Below, piece after piece: positions 1,187-8,859 of a DNA stretch of 8,859 nt (position 1 is its first letter; each line of letters starts with the position of its first letter). Under the pieces are notes generated by a model that was given only the letters and a program-made list of their open reading frames with translations, was not told the DNA's origin and did no database searches. The DNA lies in contig JAEOTL010000505.1 of assembly GCA_016839845.1 (NCBI GenBank), forward strand, positions 1-8,859. The letters run 5' to 3'. The stretch comes from Promethearchaeota archaeon. Its GTDB lineage: Archaea; Asgardarchaeota; Lokiarchaeia; Sigynarchaeales; SOKP01. The position numbers were made by a program, and so were the translations under genes.

Positions 1187-2089
1187 ATGCTAAATTTTGA
1201 AGTTGAGCAAAAAGTAGTTCAAATCGGGAAGAATCGTATAGGGGGGAATCCCGGTCAAAATCCCGTTACAATGATCGGGTCAGTATTTTACGCAAAACAT
1301 GCTGCTCTATTGAATGAAAAGACTGGGGAGATAGATAAGAGTATCGTAGAAAAAGAATTAAATGATTTTACAGAAATTATAGAGGATACTCAAATGCAAG
1401 GAATAATCGATGTAGTTGGTGCTTATCCCGAAACACTCTTAAAATATTGTGAGTTTGTAGCAGATACTGTCGATTTCCCATTTTTAGTGGATGGTTTAAA
1501 TGATTCTTCGCGTATACCCGCAATGGAAGGATTAGCAGAAGCTGGTTTACTTGATCGAGCAATTTTGAACAGTATAGATGAGGCAACAACAGAAGATACT
1601 ATCTTGAAATTAAAGGAGATAGGAGTAAAGAATGCTATCGTTCTAACTTTTGGAAGTAGATATGTCTTCCCCAAACAAAAATTGAAATTTTTAGAAGAAA
1701 CACTTATCCCAAAGGCACAAAATGCAAATATTGAGAATATACTAGTCGATACTGCTGTCCTCGATTTACCTTCGGTCTCTGTTAATTTCGAGACAAATAA
1801 TCTTGTTAAAAGCAGATTAGGATTACCTACAGGGTGTGCTCCATCAAATGCTATATATAATTGGGAATTTATTAAAAAATACGGTGATATACCTAGATGT
1901 GGGGCAATAGCATCTATAATGACCTATTGTGCAAGTGCTGGGAGCGATTTTCTACTCTTTGGGCCAATAAAATTTGCTAAATGCGTAATTCCCTCTGTTG
2001 CGTTAATCTCTGGTGTAAATTCGTATTATAGAAAAAGGGTTTTAAGAAAAAATATATCAGAAAGTACTCCTCTTAATGTGCTCTTCTAA
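1187..2089 (+). CDS. mtrH: MtrH-family methyltransferase (tetrahydromethanopterin S-methyltransferase subunit H-like)
   Basis: Homolog of MtrH, the subunit that moves a methyl group between tetrahydromethanopterin (or a related pterin) and a corrinoid. The 300 residues match the family along their whole length and are close to its usual size of a little over 300. Recognisable motifs are G-G-N-P-G (19-23), G-S-V-F-Y (31-35), V-D-T-A-V-L-D-L-P-S (187-196), G-L-P-T-G-C-A-P-S-N (212-221) and D-F-L-L-F-G-P-I (254-261). No mtrA-G genes or corrinoid protein are next to it, so it is a stand-alone form. In other archaea and bacteria such copies are thought to work with separate corrinoid proteins on methylated compounds. 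That role is inferred here. A stop at 1181-1183 fixes ATG 1187 as the first start. There is no Shine-Dalgarno site, so the mRNA may be leaderless. The gene ends 18 bases from the convergent GTPase gene. Confidence 0.88.
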   Translation: MLNFEVEQKVVQIGKNRIGGNPGQNPVTMIGSVFYAKHAALLNEKTGEIDKSIVEKELNDFTEIIEDTQMQGIIDVVGAYPETLLKYCEFVADTVDFPFLVDGLNDSSRIPAMEGLAEAGLLDRAILNSIDEATTEDTILKLKEIGVKNAIVLTFGSRYVFPKQKLKFLEETLIPKAQNANIENILVDTAVLDLPSVSVNFETNNLVKSRLGLPTGCAPSNAIYNWEFIKKYGDIPRCGAIASIMTYCASAGSDFLLFGPIKFAKCVIPSVALISGVNSYYRKRVLRKNISESTPLNVLF

Positions 2090-2107: not shown

Positions 2108-3613
2108 TTAAGATATATATCTAAGCAAAAGAGCTTGAGTTTGCATTAAAAATTTGGGCAGATCAGTATCTATTTTTTCTTTCTTCTTCTCATTATCTAT
2201 AAGGAATAAAATAAACATTTCATTCTGAGCAATTTGAATTTTCTTAAAGAGAACAATTGAGTTGCCAACCTTAAACAATGCCTCTTCTTGCTGTAAAGCT
2301 TTAAAACTTGAGAAGATTTTATATAGAATTGCAAACTGTGGGGCAGTAACTTCAAAAACATTGACAATCTCTTCTGTTTTGGAGATCTTCGTTAATTTTC
2401 TCGCTTTTGATGAATAATAATCCGCCAATACAAGACCATCTGTACTTAACAATAACGATAAATAAGATTTTGCACTTTGTGAGAAATTTTTCAGATTATG
2501 ATTAATAATCTCTCTATTGGGAGATAGTTTGGAAATTCCTGAAGAAAATGCTCTTAAAATTGTATAAATTTGGAAAATGCTTGTTACATATAACTCATTT
2601 GGTCCATTAGAAGCGAGTTCAGCAAGTCTTTCTCGTACAATTTTAATATTAGTTTTAATTTCCCCTGAATTTACTATATCCGGGTCACCTTTTGAAAGAA
2701 CATATATAATTGGTGTATCTTGATTAAAGCGTTTCAGAACAGCTTTTAAGTCTTGAAGATATTTAAAACTTTCTTCAAACCTATTTTTGTTCCTTATGTC
2801 AATGAAATAGAATAGGAGATCTGCTTCATATAAATAAATTTCTGCTCTATTGATATATTTTTTTCTAAACACAAGTTGACCGCCTAAATCCCATAAAAAT
2901 ATTGTTGCTCCCAGTGCTTCAATAGATGTGATACTAGCTCCTGAAGTAGGTTTTAATCCAATTAATTTACTATATTTCCTATCTACGCTCAAAAGAAAAC
3001 TTGTTTTACCAGAATCGTCTAATCCTGCCATTAAAATCTTTAGCTTTCGATGTGAACTTACAGGGGTTGAAGGATTTTTTTCGATCTCAATTATTTGTTT
3101 AAATAAACTTACAAAAAAAGATTCCACCTTCTCTTGAGATGGATAATCATTATGCATCTTCTCATCAAATTCATTAAAGAAATCGATGATAATCGGCTTT
3201 ATTCTATTAATATTGTTGTACAAAAAACTTCTGCTGTATTCATCTACCAAAACCGATAATGCAGTTGCTACTGGAGTTTCAGATTGGTTCGTTTTGATAT
3301 AATGAAAAAATGATAGAGAAGTTGCTTTAAAATCAGGATAGGGAAGAATTGCGAAGTATTTAAGATTGTCAAAATCTACGTCCTCGATAAATTCTCTGTC
3401 ACTGATAAAAAGACTCAAATTTTTTATAGAAATCTGTGTTACATCTCGATAGGATAGAATAAGCTGATTTTGATCCTTATCCGTTTCTTCTAATTTCGCG
3501 AGTTCTTTATCACTGACGTAATTCGGGAACATGTAAATAGGCTGAGGTCCTAACTCACCATGAATACTAAAAATGAAGCCCTTAACAACTGAAGACTTAA
3601 GTAGTTCTTCCAT
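2108..3613 (-). CDS. Rag/Gtr-like small GTPase with N-terminal longin-like and C-terminal roadblock-like regions
   Basis: A 501-residue, three-part regulatory GTPase. Residues 1 to about 180 look like a longin domain: G-F-I-F-S then G-P-Q-P-I-Y near the start, alternating strands, and helices after 115. Residues 190 to about 360 are an Arf/Ras-superfamily GTPase. They carry a G1 P-loop G-L-D-D-S-G-K-T (197-204), a candidate switch I Thr223, G3 W-D-L-G-G-Q (241-246), G4 S-K-G-D (307-310) and G5 T-S-I (344-346). From G5 onward the order T-S-I, then S-S-G-I, then L-S-P-N, then N-L-K-N-F-S-Q (374-380) closely parallels eukaryotic RagA/Gtr1. The remainder (about 382-501) has the roadblock/longin-like pattern L-L-L-S-T-D-G-L-V-L-A-D-Y. 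G4 has Ser where Asn or His is usual, but the base-specifying Asp is kept. No membrane span or C-terminal lipid-anchor cysteine is seen. The domain borders are my estimates. Confidence 0.85.
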   Translation of the reverse strand: MEELLKSSVVKGFIFSIHGELGPQPIYMFPNYVSDKELAKLEETDKDQNQLILSYRDVTQISIKNLSLFISDREFIEDVDFDNLKYFAILPYPDFKATSLSFFHYIKTNQSETPVATALSVLVDEYSRSFLYNNINRIKPIIIDFFNEFDEKMHNDYPSQEKVESFFVSLFKQIIEIEKNPSTPVSSHRKLKILMAGLDDSGKTSFLLSVDRKYSKLIGLKPTSGASITSIEALGATIFLWDLGGQLVFRKKYINRAEIYLYEADLLFYFIDIRNKNRFEESFKYLQDLKAVLKRFNQDTPIIYVLSKGDPDIVNSGEIKTNIKIVRERLAELASNGPNELYVTSIFQIYTILRAFSSGISKLSPNREIINHNLKNFSQSAKSYLSLLLSTDGLVLADYYSSKARKLTKISKTEEIVNVFEVTAPQFAILYKIFSSFKALQQEEALFKVGNSIVLFKKIQIAQNEMFILFLIDNEKKKEKIDTDLPKFLMQTQALLLRYIS

Positions 3614-3704: not shown

Positions 3705-4667
3705 ATGATACTTGAAAAAATTGCTAAGAGCATTAACGCCAATAAGCATATTCTAGAAAAAAAAGAAATTAGTCCAATAGTCCAATATATTGAAAAAAAT
3801 ACTTATAAAAGTCCACAAATTTTTTCTGACATCGGTGAAGACTCGGCCGCCATAATAAATAATGATAAATATATCCTGATTACAACAGACAGAATAAAAA
3901 CCGAATTTATTGAGAATTTTCCGTTTGGTGCAGGTTTTAGTTCAATTTTAGTTAGTGTGGACGATATATATGCTTGTGGAGGAACTCCATTGGCAGCAAG
4001 TATAATAATTTCTGTAAAAAACCCCACGATTGGTGAAGCTATACTTGAAGGAATTTCAGAAGGATCTAGAAAATTCAAAGTTCCAATAGTTAGGGGTCAC
4101 ACTAACTTACAAAGTAATTTTTGTGAATTGAGCTCTACTATGATTGGAGAGATAAAGCGTGAAGATTATATCTCTGCGGGAAATGCTCAAGTAGGAGATG
4201 ATATAATTTTAGCAGTAGACTTTGATGGCAAACCCGGAAAAGCGAGTAAATTCTATTACGACACTACAACATTTAAAAGTTCTGAAGAAGTATTACGAAA
4301 ACGTAGCTCTCTAAATATAATAGCTAAAAAACATTTGGCTAACGCATCAAAAGATGTATCCAATGGGGGAATTTTTGGGACATTATTACAGATGATTAAA
4401 TATTCAGACGTAGGAGCAGATGTCAATATAAATACCATAAAAATTCCTCCGATATTATTAGAAAAAGATTATACCATAGAATCCTACATAGAATCCTACC
4501 TCACAACTTCTTTTTTACTGACGTGCAAAAACAAAAACAGTGAAGAAATGATAGATACTTTTAAAAAATATGGAATCGTTGCCAATGTTATAGGTAAAAT
4601 TATTAATGATCCATGTCTTTTGAGAATAAATAATGGAAAGAAGTCAATTGATGTAATGAAATTTTAA
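3705..4667 (+). CDS. AIR synthase-related (PurM/ThiL-like) protein, methanogenesis marker 2-like
   Basis: A 320-residue member of the PurM superfamily, whose members bind ATP and usually make phosphorylated or activated intermediates (PurM, ThiL, SelD, HypE). The N-terminal half shows G-E-D-S-A-A (44-49), T-T-D-R-I (60-64) and D-D-I-Y-A-C-G-G-T-P-L (86-96), matching the metal/ATP-binding part of ThiL-like proteins. The segments D-F-D-G-K-P (172-177), D-T-T-T-F-K (186-191) and K-D-V-S-N-G-G-I-F-G-T-L (216-227) look most like the MMP2/sll0787 branch, whose reaction is unknown to me. It is the first gene of the plus-strand cluster, 83 bases ahead of the ACT gene. The gap between it and homoserine dehydrogenase functions suggests an ATP-using step, possibly in the same pathway. 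A 12-base tandem duplication makes residues I258-Y265 a repeated I-E-S-Y. Superfamily is sure; function is not. Confidence 0.8.
   Translation: MILEKIAKSINANKHILEKKEISPIVQYIEKNTYKSPQIFSDIGEDSAAIINNDKYILITTDRIKTEFIENFPFGAGFSSILVSVDDIYACGGTPLAASIIISVKNPTIGEAILEGISEGSRKFKVPIVRGHTNLQSNFCELSSTMIGEIKREDYISAGNAQVGDDIILAVDFDGKPGKASKFYYDTTTFKSSEEVLRKRSSLNIIAKKHLANASKDVSNGGIFGTLLQMIKYSDVGADVNINTIKIPPILLEKDYTIESYIESYLTTSFLLTCKNKNSEEMIDTFKKYGIVANVIGKIINDPCLLRINNGKKSIDVMKF
4476..4499 (+). repeat. Perfect 12-base in-frame tandem duplication
   Basis: ATAGAATCCTAC occurs twice in a row and encodes I-E-S-Y twice in the C-terminal half of the AIR synthase-related protein. Being perfect at the DNA level, it looks like a recent slippage event that kept the frame. 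Confidence 0.9.
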
Positions 4668-4750: not shown

Positions 4751-5260
4751 ATGGAAATTAAGAAAACTATGATAAATTTAGAAGTTAGATTGCCAGATAC
4801 TCCTGGAAGTTTAATTGAACTGATAAAACCTATCTCAAAAAATGGTGGAAACATTTATGGTATTATGCATTTTCATGATAGGAAAGTAAATAATATGATC
4901 CCGGTGAATATTAATTTTGAACTAAGCCCAGAACTCAAAGAATCGAGCTTACAAAATATAAAAGAAGAACTAAAAGAAAATAACATTCAGATCGAGAATA
5001 TTACATATGGAATTGAAAAAAGAGTTCTCACTGTGCTTTTAACTGGGCATGTATTTGATACTGATGTACTTGATACAATAAAACGTTTAGCAGCTAATAA
5101 TATTACTGTTTCCGAATTACAAGCCAAATTTACGGGGTTGAAAGAAATTAGTAATGTTAAATTTAAAATTGAATTTCCTGAAAATTTGACAAAAGAAGAG
5201 TTGATTATAGAGCTACGAAAAATATGTGAGGAAAAAAACTTATTCTTAATAACAAGTTAA
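4751..5260 (+). CDS. ACT-domain protein, predicted allosteric regulator of homoserine dehydrogenase
   Basis: A 169-residue protein like COG2061, the archaeal stand-alone ACT protein usually found beside homoserine dehydrogenase. The N-terminal ACT domain (about 6-85) begins with an alternating strand, then the ligand-loop motif D-T-P-G-S-L (16-21) and N-G-G-N-I (31-35). The second part carries T-G-H-V-F-D-T-D-V-L-D-T-I (98-110), a signature I associate with this family, and ends with another beta-alpha-beta-like stretch. It probably binds threonine or another amino acid and controls the enzyme encoded 55 bases downstream, which has no ACT domain of its own. There is no Shine-Dalgarno site; an ATG at codon 7 is an alternative start. 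A TTAATAA element at 4722-4728 is suitably placed for a leaderless transcript. Confidence 0.85.
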   Translation: MEIKKTMINLEVRLPDTPGSLIELIKPISKNGGNIYGIMHFHDRKVNNMIPVNINFELSPELKESSLQNIKEELKENNIQIENITYGIEKRVLTVLLTGHVFDTDVLDTIKRLAANNITVSELQAKFTGLKEISNVKFKIEFPENLTKEELIIELRKICEEKNLFLITS

Positions 5261-5315
5261 TAGTTAATAAATTGAGGCTTTTTAATCGAATTTGTAAACA
5301 ACCAATTTAATATGT

Positions 5316-6338
5316 GTGGAAGAAATGGACGTAAAAATCTGTTTAATTGGAAAGGGTATCGTAGGAACAAGTTTTCTTAAGTTATTAAATGAAAAGAATA
5401 CTGAATTCAATGACCTTTTTGGTTTTAATTTTATTGTAAATTCAATTGTGGAGGAGGATGGTGCATTAGTCAGGAAAGAGGGAATAAATTTGGAGGAGGT
5501 TCTCAAAATAGCTGATAATTTCAGAGATCTACCTTACTGGGAAAAAAATCTAAAACCAAATGAAATCTTTTCTAAATTAGATTTAGATGTGTGCATTGAA
5601 GCTACCCCTACAAATCATAAAACCGGGGAACCAGGACTTTCTCATATTATAAGCGCCTTAAATAATGGAATAGATGTAATTTCTTCAAATAAAGGTCCAT
5701 TTTACTTAGAATATGATAAAATCAGACAATTGGCAAATAAGAAGAAGTGCTATGTTTTGTATGAAGCCACTGTAGCAAGTTGTGTTCCCGCTCTTGGAAT
5801 TAAAGGCAACATTGAGGGTAATGAAATTATTAGTATTAAAGCCATATTGAATGGAACATGTAATTTTATATTGAGTAGGATGACGGCTGAAGGGGTGGAT
5901 TTTACATTAGCATTAAAGGAAGCACAGGAACTAGGTTACGCAGAAGCCGATCCTAGCCTGGATATTGAAGGATACGATGCCGCAGGAAAATTAGTTATTC
6001 TTGCGAATGATTTATTAGGATGGCATAAAAACATTACTGATGTAAAAGTAGAGGGAATTTCGAATATAACTCCCCAAGCAATTGATTTAGCGAAATCGGA
6101 TGGACTCGTTATTAAACATTTGGCTATTGCAGAGAAAAATGAATTAAAAGTTGAACCACGGTTGATTAATAAACATTCCTCTCTTAATATCAGAGGTAAT
6201 TTAAACGTAATAGAATTAGAAACTAAGTTTGCAGGACCGATAACACTCATGGGCCGAGGAGCAGGAGGACCTGAAGCTGCTTCAGCTATAATTAATGACT
6301 TAATCAGCATTACCAAGAAAAAACAAAACGCCACATAA
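5316..6338 (+). CDS. hom: Homoserine dehydrogenase
   Basis: Reduces aspartate semialdehyde to homoserine with NAD(P)H in the cytoplasm, the branch point to threonine and methionine. The 340 residues contain the dinucleotide-binding G-K-G-I-V-G (12-17), the core T-P-T-N and N-K-G-P (97-100, 125-128), E-A-T-V-A (150-154), L-N-G-T-C-N-F-I-L-S-R-M (178-189) and the catalytic block E-A-Q-E-L-G-Y-A-E-A-D-P (202-213) through D221 and K225. By analogy with the yeast enzyme, E210, D221 and K225 are the likely active-site residues. The end G-A-G-G-P-E-A-A-S-A-I (315-325) is typical. There is no aspartokinase fusion or C-terminal ACT domain, so regulation is probably by the upstream ACT protein. GTG 5316 is the longest start; ATG 5325 (codon 4) fits the family's N-terminus equally well. 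A stop at 5295-5297 excludes longer forms. Confidence 0.93.
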   Translation: MEEMDVKICLIGKGIVGTSFLKLLNEKNTEFNDLFGFNFIVNSIVEEDGALVRKEGINLEEVLKIADNFRDLPYWEKNLKPNEIFSKLDLDVCIEATPTNHKTGEPGLSHIISALNNGIDVISSNKGPFYLEYDKIRQLANKKKCYVLYEATVASCVPALGIKGNIEGNEIISIKAILNGTCNFILSRMTAEGVDFTLALKEAQELGYAEADPSLDIEGYDAAGKLVILANDLLGWHKNITDVKVEGISNITPQAIDLAKSDGLVIKHLAIAEKNELKVEPRLINKHSSLNIRGNLNVIELETKFAGPITLMGRGAGGPEAASAIINDLISITKKKQNAT

Positions 6339-6362
6339 CCATAACCTTATAATAGATCTATC

Positions 6363-6368
6363 AAGGAG
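6363..6368 (+). promoter_or_regulatory. Shine-Dalgarno site that decides the start of the LOG-like gene
   Basis: AAGGAG lies 10 bases before a TTG at 6379 but only 1 base before the in-frame GTG at 6370. Normal spacing therefore favours TTG 6379 as the real start codon. Confidence 0.65.
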
Positions 6369-6378
6369 TGTGTGTAAT

Positions 6379-6897
6379 TTGAATCTAAATGTTAAACAAC
6401 CTATAAAAGCAATAATTTCTGTTATAGGAGCAAGTGAAATTAGTAAGGAAATCGAAGAACAAACTTTTCAAATAGGCAGATTACTTGCCTTAAACAATTA
6501 TGCTGTAGCATGTGGGGGCTTGTCTGGAGTAATGGAGGCAATCTGTAAAGGTGTGAAACAAGAAGGAGGGTTAACTATTGGAATCATACCTTATACCGAC
6601 AAGAGCAATGCGAACAAATATGTTGATATTGTAATTCCTTGTCCTTTTTCACAAGCCAGAAATATTGTCGTAGTACTCGCAGGGGATCTCTGTTTAGCTA
6701 TTAGTGGTAAAGCAGGAACATTATCTGAAATAAGTTTTGCATGGATATACAACAAACCTATAGTTGCATTGGAAAGTGTTCCTGGATGGTCCTCCAAAAT
6801 TGCGAATCAAAAACTCGATGATAGAAGAGAGGATATGATATATGGGGTAAATTCACCTCAAGAGGTTATTGATAAAATTAATGAGTTATTAAAATAG
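6379..6897 (+). CDS. TIGR00725/LOG-like Rossmann-fold protein
   Basis: A small protein of the SLOG/LOG (lysine decarboxylase-like) superfamily, best matching the TIGR00725 type. The longest frame starts at GTG 6370 (175 residues), but the ribosome binding site favours TTG 6379 (172 residues). In 172-residue numbering the glycine-rich nucleotide-binding stretch A-C-G-G-L-S-G-V-M-E is at about 44-53, R-N at 94-95, and S-G-K-A-G-T-L-S-E at 109-117. The last corresponds to the P-G-G-x-G-T-x-x-E signature of cytokinin-activating LOG enzymes, with the first Pro replaced. Family members bind nucleotides or nucleotide-derived ligands, and LOG enzymes cut a phosphoribosyl bond; the archaeal role is unknown. 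The gene lies 40 bases after hom and 19 bases before thrC, so it is probably part of the same transcript. A role in threonine metabolism is only suggested by position. Confidence 0.8.
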   Translation: MNLNVKQPIKAIISVIGASEISKEIEEQTFQIGRLLALNNYAVACGGLSGVMEAICKGVKQEGGLTIGIIPYTDKSNANKYVDIVIPCPFSQARNIVVVLAGDLCLAISGKAGTLSEISFAWIYNKPIVALESVPGWSSKIANQKLDDRREDMIYGVNSPQEVIDKINELLK

Positions 6898-6916
6898 ATG
6901 GTTTGTCCCTTAAATT

Positions 6917-8272
6917 ATGATTAAATTACACTCAACCAATAATACTGATCCAGATGTCGATTTTAAAACTGCAGTACTAAGAGGACAAGCGTTAGACAAA
7001 GGATTGTATGTGTTAAATACAATTCCAAAAATATCAAACGAGGAGATAAATAGCTATCAAACTATTTCTCTTGATGAAATTGGGTTCATGGTTTTATCTA
7101 AAATAATAGGAAAGCTTATCCCAGAGAACAATCTTAAGGAGATCTTAAAAAATGCTCTAAATTTCTCAGTTCCTATGAAAGAAATTGAAAAGAGTAATTA
7201 TATTTGTTTTTTAGATAAAGGTCCAACCGCGAGTTTTAAAGATTTTGGAGCAAGGACTCTTGCCAGGTTGATGGAATATTTTTTGAAGGAAGATAACAGA
7301 ACTATTACCATCTTGACTGCAACATCAGGAGATACTGGAGGTGCTGTAGCACAAGCATTTTATGAAATGCAAGGGATCAACGTTGTTATATTATACCCTA
7401 AAAACGAAGTTAGCGATCTACAAAGAAAACAGATGACAACTCTTGGCAAAAATGTTACTGCAATTGGTATTGAGGGAAAATTTGATGACTGCCAGCGTTT
7501 TGTGAAATCTGCTTTTAATGATCCTGGCCTGAGGAATAAGAATCTCTCGTCAGCAAATTCAATAAATATTGGACGATTGATTCCTCAATGTCTATACTAT
7601 TTCTATAGTTATTCACGCCTTTTTCAAGAAAACAACGAATCGGTTATTTACTCAGTTCCCTCTGGAAATTTTGGTAACCTTATGGGGGGATTATTAGCTG
7701 CAAAAATGGGGTTGCCTGTGGTGAAATTTGTCTCAGCTGTGAATGAGAATGATGAATTTCCTCAATACCTAGAAACAGGGATCTACAATAAGGTTGAACC
7801 TTCGAGAAAATGCATCAGCAATGCAATGAATGTAGGACACCCATCAAATCTTGCTCGGGTAATTGATTTATATGGAGGACACTTGGATGAATCTGGAGTT
7901 GTTATGAAAGATCCTGATCTCCAAGCTATGAGACGAGATATTACCTCCTACTCTATTACTGATGAATTGACAAGAAAAACTATAGAAAATTTTTATAATA
8001 ATTATAAAAGTTTCATTGAACCTCACGGAGCAGTTGGTTGGGCAAGTTTACAATTATTTAGAATTGCTCATTCTGAATTAGCTAAACATAAAGCAATTTG
8101 TTTTGAAACTGCAGATCCAGCTAAATTTCCTGATGAATTTACCTCTTTAATAAATAAAAATCCACAAATTCCTCCTTCTCTTAGCCTTTTAAACAGTAAA
8201 AAAGAGTATTTAACTCAAGGAGAAATTAATAATTATCAAGGTTTTAAGAAATTCCTTGAGAATAATTTATAA
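6917..8272 (+). CDS. thrC: Threonine synthase
   Basis: A PLP enzyme that converts O-phosphohomoserine to threonine and phosphate, the last step of threonine synthesis. At 451 residues it matches the longer E. coli/fungal-type threonine synthase rather than the shorter form common in archaea. The PLP-binding lysine is K108 in T-A-S-F-K-D-F-G-A-R (104-113). T-A-T-S-G-D-T-G-G-A (134-143) and the phosphate-cradle motif P-S-G-N-F-G-N-L (248-255) are intact, as is the C-terminal E-P-H-G-A-V-G (368-374). A stop at 6911-6913 fixes ATG 6917 as the start, and there is no Shine-Dalgarno site. It sits 19 bases behind the LOG-like gene. Homoserine kinase, which supplies its substrate, is not encoded in the window. 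Confidence 0.95.
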   Translation: MIKLHSTNNTDPDVDFKTAVLRGQALDKGLYVLNTIPKISNEEINSYQTISLDEIGFMVLSKIIGKLIPENNLKEILKNALNFSVPMKEIEKSNYICFLDKGPTASFKDFGARTLARLMEYFLKEDNRTITILTATSGDTGGAVAQAFYEMQGINVVILYPKNEVSDLQRKQMTTLGKNVTAIGIEGKFDDCQRFVKSAFNDPGLRNKNLSSANSINIGRLIPQCLYYFYSYSRLFQENNESVIYSVPSGNFGNLMGGLLAAKMGLPVVKFVSAVNENDEFPQYLETGIYNKVEPSRKCISNAMNVGHPSNLARVIDLYGGHLDESGVVMKDPDLQAMRRDITSYSITDELTRKTIENFYNNYKSFIEPHGAVGWASLQLFRIAHSELAKHKAICFETADPAKFPDEFTSLINKNPQIPPSLSLLNSKKEYLTQGEINNYQGFKKFLENNL

Positions 8273-8381: not shown

Positions 8382-8859
8382 TTGGAGAAAAATCTAAAAC
8401 AGTCAATAATGTATTTGAAGAAAGAGGAGCCAGATGTTAAACCAGAAGCTTCAAAAATTTTATTTACAGGACTTGACGATGCCGGAAAAACAAGCATAAT
8501 TTTAGCCCTCCAAAGAGAATTCTCTAAAATTGCTATTCTATCACCAACCAGGGGTGCCCAAAGAAGAGTTTTCGATTTTTTAGGAAAAGAAATCTCCGAA
8601 TGGGATTTAGGGGGTCAAATTAGTTATCGTATCTCTTACCTAAAAAATCCGGGTAAATTTTTCGATGGAACAGAAATTGCAATCTATGTTATTGATGTTC
8701 AAAATAAACCAAGATTTCCTGAAGCGATCAGTTATTTTAAAGATGTAATTGCACAGTTTAAAACGTTAGAAATCGAACCTCCTATATACACCTTCCTTCA
8801 TAAGTATGATCCTGCTCTGAAGAGAAGCGCGTTAAATGAAATGGAGAATTTGATTGTCG
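8382..8859 (+). CDS. Rag/Gtr-like small GTPase, 3' end outside the window
   Basis: A partial gene of 159 codons, open to the end of the window. Its start is TTG 8382, chosen from the Shine-Dalgarno spacing; an ATG at 8409 is the alternative. The translated part contains G1 G-L-D-D-A-G-K-T-S (30-38), a likely switch I Thr56, G3 W-D-L-G-G-Q (74-79) and G4 H-K-Y-D (140-143). The His at G4, and the stretch Y-L-K-N-P-G-K-F-F-D-G-T-E-I-A-I-Y-V-I-D-V (86-106), parallel RagA/Gtr1 more than Arf. The Rag family normally has a roadblock domain after the GTPase, which would lie beyond the window. The N-terminus is short and carries no longin domain, unlike the other GTPase here. It follows thrC by 109 bases with its own promoter elements. 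GTP binding looks intact. Confidence 0.85.
   Translation, partial: MEKNLKQSIMYLKKEEPDVKPEASKILFTGLDDAGKTSIILALQREFSKIAILSPTRGAQRRVFDFLGKEISEWDLGGQISYRISYLKNPGKFFDGTEIAIYVIDVQNKPRFPEAISYFKDVIAQFKTLEIEPPIYTFLHKYDPALKRSALNEMENLIV

Follow-up and report, generated by a model that had tools for sequence, protein, structure and literature searches.

The window analysed here, an 8,859-nucleotide stretch of DNA from a Promethearchaeota archaeon of the Lokiarchaeia (contig JAEOTL010000505.1), encodes on its minus strand a 501-residue longin-GTPase-roadblock protein, LGR1 (2108..3613). Its open reading frame, Pfam matches, AlphaFold2 model and fold comparison leave very little doubt that a longin domain, a Rag/Arf-type GTPase and a roadblock domain lie in a single chain, as a preliminary description made from the sequence alone had proposed; the longin fold that it placed in residues 1-185 and the roadblock fold that it placed at the C-terminus were both found. 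The longin domain (residues 7-183; 3065..3595, minus strand, as are the other parts of LGR1) shows a b1-b2-a1-b3-b4-b5-a2-a3 fold in the predicted structure and in fold comparison. It is followed by the GTPase (about residues 190-345; 2579..3046), which matches the Pfam families Gtr1_RagA (PF04670; 74.6 bits against a cut-off of 22) and Arf, and 8yl2 and RagA by sequence. At E<=0.1, Gtr1_RagA is matched by 40 of the 41 full LGR-family members, and a weak SRPRB match falls on the same part of 39 of the 41 (E 0.0046 in LGR1). The roadblock domain (residues 363-501; 2111..2527) closes the chain, as in Rag/Gtr GTPases. LGR1 has 380 relatives at E<=1e-3; the 120 listed are nearly all full length, and those named come mostly from Promethearchaeota or other Asgard metagenome-assembled genomes. 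Proteins 67-71% identical to LGR1 are labelled Thorarchaeota, Hermodarchaeota or Odinarchaeota (e.g. P0011, P0048, P0055), and since such genome names are perhaps broad or mistaken, distribution by label is unsafe. Three proteins in the LGR1 position have altered GTPase motifs: one at locus L088 (363-1907, plus strand) has no P-loop, and those at L091 (6283-7818, plus) and L093 (358-1866, plus) read WDIPG in place of WDLGG; from their sequences, these are possible pseudo-GTPases.

The best structural match of the LGR1 longin, in Foldseek and in VIA alike, is 8yqg, a dimeric Lokiarchaeal longin. Next in VIA, by Z, stand a C9orf72-SMCR8 chain (7o2w_A, 13.2), the active FLCN GTPase-activating protein (GAP) complex (8dhb_J, 12.9), Lst4 (4zy8_D, 12.5), two further FLCN chains (6nzd_H, 12.5; 6ulg_L, 12.0) and GATOR1 (9v0j_A, 10.9), below which come TRAPP (9.8), VAMP7 (8.9), Sec22b (8.5) and AP2 sigma (8.2); no SRX chain is among the 50 best VIA rows listed. 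Foldseek places Lst4 (1.8e-4) and 6ulg_N (8.1e-4) directly after 8yqg. By VIA, then, the closest eukaryotic longin structures are those of the FLCN/FNIP and C9orf72-SMCR8 complexes, and among the FLCN:FNIP and NPRL2:NPRL3 folds that are nearest to LGR1, FLCN and Lst4 are clearer than GATOR1. Stray Pfam matches of the 15 LGR1 longins, the best of them to PDDEXK_3 (5.2e-4; in three of the 15), were rejected as chance, because fold and alignment both give a longin.

Searching genomes with an alignment of LGR1 longins recovered a paralogue, LGR2, of about 470 residues, whose domain order in the alignment equals that of LGR1 and whose longin is homologous to the LGR1 longin (hhalign probability 99.8%, E 1.8e-29). 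The Pfam model Folliculin matches all 21 LGR2 longins at E<=1, with a best E of 5.2e-6 and, in the LGR2 protein of locus L025, 25.1 bits, above the curated cut-off of 23.3. Across the 41 full LGR-family members, Folliculin is matched by 24 at E<=0.1; none of the other Pfam families listed (25 of 33) is a longin model. In whole genomes, a Folliculin match at E<=0.01 falls on 50 of 59 LGR2 places among the matches listed; 88 of all 227 phylum genomes have a Folliculin match, 40 of them one above the cut-off, and none of 14 control genomes has one.

LGR2 also carries the arginine that corresponds to the finger residue of FLCN. A review identifies FLCN Arg164 as the arginine finger of catalysis and its loop as the analogue of the one bearing NPRL2 Arg78 (PMC7464330), and Arg147 of SMCR8 is given as the finger of the C9orf72 complex (PMC8213707). 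The residue aligned with FLCN Arg164 (the R of KDSLARGF, 6ulg_L numbering) is arginine in 22 of 22 LGR2 rows, in all four rows of a third type (LGR-family rows from genomes G158, G159, G161 and G162) and in none of 15 LGR1 rows; in the LGR2 protein of L025 this arginine is R91. A motif search found the arginine loop, common to FLCN and LGR2, in 118 of 120 listed LGR2 homologues, the other two being an N-terminally cut fragment and a protein reading SRGG. In LGR1 the corresponding b4-b5 loop comprises residues 107-114 (3272..3295), and across 55 LGR1 proteins it has no conserved arginine at any position. A tree of the GTPase-roadblock part, built from archaeal rows only, without eukaryotic rows or an outgroup and rooted for drawing only, sets the 15 main LGR1 rows apart from the LGR2 rows, RagO and the third type (support 98/99 on the side with 31 rows), and two divergent proteins in the LGR1 position, from L087 and L088, fall outside the 15-row group.

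These results bear on two further claims of the preliminary description. Its comparison with FLCN-FNIP and NPRL2-NPRL3 gains support from the nearest eukaryotic longin structures and from LGR2, which has both a Folliculin match and the arginine; LGR1 itself has neither. The idea that the single chain forms a self-contained regulator-switch finds no support in that form: with the arginine and the Folliculin match both absent from all 15 LGR1 longins, LGR1 alone is not a complete switch plus GAP, and "self-contained" suits, if anything, the LGR1/LGR2 pair. Related longins also occur in other settings. Proteins at L095 (1360-2598, plus strand), L096 (1243-2589, plus), L098 (610-1797, minus), L100 and L101 match Folliculin above the cut-off (8.7e-8 at L095), carry an ARGG or SRGG loop and have no Pfam GTPase. 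To the eye, the part after their longin resembles a DENN core, and we presume this likeness in suggesting that they may be Asgard longin-DENN proteins. At L083 (910-2001, plus), a longin with a Folliculin score of 23.1 bits, slightly under the cut-off, is fused to a Ras-family GTPase (E 8e-49) that differs from the LGR GTPase.

The LGR1 and LGR2 genes are linked to each other and to two further genes. One encodes a second, RagA-like GTPase of the LokiRagO type (RagO hereafter; 8yl2, E 1.7e-50), which begins in the window at 8382..8858 on the plus strand and is cut by the window end; the other encodes a zinc-ribbon protein whose C-terminus is, judged by sequence, perhaps weakly roadblock-like (Robl_LC7 in three of seven members, best E 0.018; 7f8m, E 0.065). 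The LGR1-longin alignment matches 77 of 227 phylum genomes at E<=0.001. Sorted by hand among the matches listed, with strong, mostly whole-domain matches taken as LGR1 places, mostly partial ones (about E 1e-23 to 1e-14) as LGR2 places, and the third type, weaker rows and a short LGR1-like piece in genome G002 removed, LGR1 occurs in at least 59 genomes, LGR2 in at least 59 and both in at least 53. The RagO-type set holds the best row of each genome (for G117, two rows), and the zinc-ribbon set the main rows, with second paralogues and weak or distant rows dropped from both. Where LGR1 and LGR2 share a contig they lie at most 25 kb apart in 32 of 33 genomes (median 7953 bp), on opposite strands in all 32 of these pairs; the 20 of 53 genomes that have them on different contigs say nothing on distance. 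Of the 55 genomes that have both a RagO-type and a zinc-ribbon gene, 52 carry the two on the same contig, always within 25 kb and on one strand, with a median gap of 196 bp. RagO lies within 25 kb of LGR1 in 46 of 47 same-contig genomes and of LGR2 in 44 of 45, co-oriented with LGR2 in 44 of 44. Of the 46 genomes with the complete set of four genes, 30 have them all within 25 kb, and the remaining 16 have LGR1 and LGR2 on separate contigs. Outside this set, greater distances occur in G090 (81 kb from LGR1 to LGR2, 87 kb from LGR2 to RagO) and in G002 (959 kb from LGR1 to RagO). In G002 a rearrangement seems to have split the region at LGR1: beside the AIR-synthase gene lies a piece (L026, about 4456-4620, plus; E 3.5e-17) that matches LGR1 residues 1-55, and the full LGR1 gene sits with the MtrH gene (L015). 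For the present contig, LGR2 is expected past the window end, beyond the RagO-type open reading frame that runs off at 8858. Tandem RagO-type genes (G107:C115:842-2809, G111:C3:111900-113929, G155:C47:17989-20093) are perhaps operon pairs like the one in MK-D1 for which Tran et al. modelled a heterodimer of Rag-like GTPases (PMC10933270).

The remaining genes of the window, all on the plus strand, flank LGR1 or lie between the two GTPase genes. An MtrH-family methyltransferase gene (1187..2089) is convergent with LGR1, their ends 18 bp apart, and an AIR-synthase-related gene (3705..4667) is divergent from it, the two starts 91 bp apart; in a comparison of the window with 16 genome loci, all titled Lokiarchaeia or Lokiarchaeota, each is kept in 16 of 17 loci. 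An archaeosortase H gene (245-1117; NF041736, E 9e-94) often lies near the MtrH gene in the compared loci. Genes for an ACT-domain protein, a homoserine dehydrogenase, an SLOG protein and a threonine synthase occupy 4751-8272, between the GTPases. All of these but the SLOG gene prompted the thought of a role in amino-acid sensing, which we do not claim, since several relatives lack these three genes at that place and retain the GTPase genes.

The domain architecture of LGR1 is already published, for Prometheoarchaeum MK-D1. Tran et al. 2024 (PMC10933270) count 74 small GTPase sequences in that organism, of which 26 are joined to roadblock or longin domains; from AlphaFold2 models they describe Rag-like GTPases with a longin fused on one side and a roadblock domain on the other. 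Compared by published description, these fusions share the domain order and the Rag/Arf-like GTPase of LGR1; relative to that description, the present work adds counts of a conserved cluster in which the gene of a second fusion, that of a RagA-like GTPase and a zinc-ribbon/roadblock-like gene accompany LGR1. The same authors report that small GTPase genes generally lie outside operons with roadblock or longin genes and that GTPase-regulator partnerships are hard to predict from genome layout, and in their main text FLCN is named only in the introduction and the reference list (PMC10933270). In the literature listings that we searched, from which subscription papers were mostly absent, no paper describing a folliculin-type longin in Asgard archaea came up; at least two papers mention both folliculin and Asgard, each naming folliculin a single time. 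To the extent of these searches, the longin of FLCN class and the conservation of the cluster are new.

Among solved structures, the closest relatives of the LGR1 GTPase-roadblock part by sequence are LokiRagO (8yl2) and LokiRagM (8zla, 9m28), titled RagA-like and Rag-like GTPases. Their chains of 342 and 385 residues cover no longin, LGR1 matches them from the GTPase onward, and the LokiRagO type in the window is the second GTPase, not LGR1; no paper naming 8yl2 was found in the literature searched. Eukaryotic RagA:RagC and Gtr1:Gtr2 have a GTPase followed by a roadblock domain, as LGR1 does, and share with it the Pfam family Gtr1_RagA; in structure, LGR1 matches 6s6d, 4arz and 8fw5. These Rag/Gtr proteins have no N-terminal longin, and their regulators are separate chains. 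In FLCN:FNIP and NPRL2:NPRL3, the longin is followed by a DENN domain, whereas in LGR1 no DENN domain follows and the GTPase stands there instead. The MglA:MglB system likewise joins a small GTPase to a roadblock partner, and the LGR1 roadblock fold matches MglB; there, however, the two are separate chains, the GTPase is of the MglA type and there is no longin.

Together these observations suggest a model, which we put forward tentatively, in which the cluster encodes a Rag-type module with FLCN/FNIP-like longins attached and LGR1 is the fingerless partner. Rag GTPases pair through their roadblock domains. The longins of FLCN and FNIP pair as well, and insert between the Rag G domains (PMC7464330). 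By analogy, LGR1 would pair with LGR2 through roadblock-roadblock contacts, as in RagA:RagC and Gtr1:Gtr2, and through longin-longin contacts, as in FLCN:FNIP. The LGR2 arginine finger would then speed GTP hydrolysis by LGR1, by LGR2 itself or by RagO next to it; the LGR1 longin would act as an FNIP-like scaffold and switch reader; and RagO with the co-encoded zinc-ribbon/roadblock-like protein would complete a module resembling Rag/Ragulator. Computation gives the three domains, the class to which the longin structure belongs, the Folliculin match and arginine of LGR2, and the gene linkage; from these we infer the LGR1:LGR2 pairing, the GAP activity, its target and its cellular role. Fusion in one chain suggests that the domains act on each other, and a linked pair of fusions, each with a roadblock end and an FLCN-class longin end, one fingered and one not, fits a built-in FLCN-FNIP-Rag complex.

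Several observations weigh against this model. GATOR1 longins (Z 9.4-10.9) overlap TRAPP (9.8), and Foldseek E-values past 8yqg are modest, with LOV/PAS domains appearing from 3.9e-3 on. As none of the 15 LGR1 longins matches Folliculin, we do not class LGR1 as a folliculin. Profiles of LGR1 or LGR2 longins recover no FLCN or NPRL2 chain by sequence among solved structures: the LGR1 profile reaches 8yqg only at a non-significant E of 0.79, and the LGR2 profile finds nothing significant. Scored without gaps against single LGR proteins, human FLCN 149-201 does mostly no better than shuffles, fewer than 20 of 500 shuffles reaching the real score in only two of 43 rows. The Folliculin matches of LGR2 are weak, many of them under the curated cut-off, and short, spanning about 60 residues at model positions 49-110; moreover, 78 of 128 listed Folliculin rows fall on other Asgard longin proteins, so that the match marks a broad longin clade and not LGR2 alone. 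Lastly, LGR1 and LGR2, about 8 kb apart on opposite strands, do not form one operon.

Three other explanations can account for parts of these data. LGR1 might form a homodimer, its longin being an ordinary Asgard longin that serves dimerisation or, as in TRAPP, a GEF-like (guanine nucleotide exchange factor-like) platform, and its likeness to FLCN being generic. The missing Folliculin match and the dimeric state of 8yqg both speak for this, as do the title of the solved LokiRagO, which calls it homo-tetrameric, and the homodimers that Tran et al. modelled for other Rag-like architectures (PMC10933270). We consider it doubtful, if a serious competitor to the FLCN/FNIP-like model. The longin could instead be an intramolecular effector or membrane platform that reads the GTP-bound state of a G domain, in its own chain or in a partner, and has no part in catalysis. 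An analogue exists in the SRX longin of the signal recognition particle receptor, which works with the Arf-like SR-beta, and the absent arginine finger of LGR1 would fit, as would the SRPRB matches on the GTPase part; these matches, however, are far weaker than those to Gtr1_RagA and behave as general small-GTPase matches, and we judge a purely reading longin improbable.

LGR1 and LGR2 may also form no complex at all, with LGR2 regulating RagO and LGR1 an independent GTPase held in place by inherited synteny. RagO is indeed nearer to LGR2 and on its strand, LGR2, RagO and the zinc-ribbon gene being co-oriented and LGR1 opposite; other LGR1 neighbours, such as the MtrH-family gene, are equally conserved; and the linkage is broken in G090 and G002. 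Against this stand the paralogy of LGR1 and LGR2, their identical set of three domains and, among the matches listed, their joint presence in 53 genomes as compared with 59 for each, and we give full independence of the two proteins only a slim chance.

A broader evolutionary proposal goes beyond the FLCN/FNIP-like model, and we regard it as rather unlikely on present evidence. The cluster LGR1-RagO-zinc-ribbon/roadblock-like-LGR2 might represent a pre-eukaryotic Rag module, with an FLCN/FNIP-like longin pair, of which one member has the arginine finger and the other lacks it, fused to a Rag pair; the eukaryotic FLCN-FNIP and GATOR1 GAPs might be descendants of such a fused switch-plus-GAP or have a common ancestor with it, having parted from the GTPase and joined a DENN domain. 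Longins themselves have been proposed to derive from prokaryotic roadblock-type GAP domains (Zhang et al. 2012, PMC3521125). If the fusions work as proposed, the pairing of a Rag switch with a longin GAP would predate eukaryotes, and the LGR2 arginine would allow an experiment on a single residue. The make-up of the cluster also suggests how GTPases and regulators are to be matched with one another. LGR1 joins in one chain a Rag-type switch and a regulator domain that are kept on separate proteins in humans, and a sister protein with the regulator's key arginine is encoded near it in many related genomes, making the origin of this signaling machinery testable in archaea.
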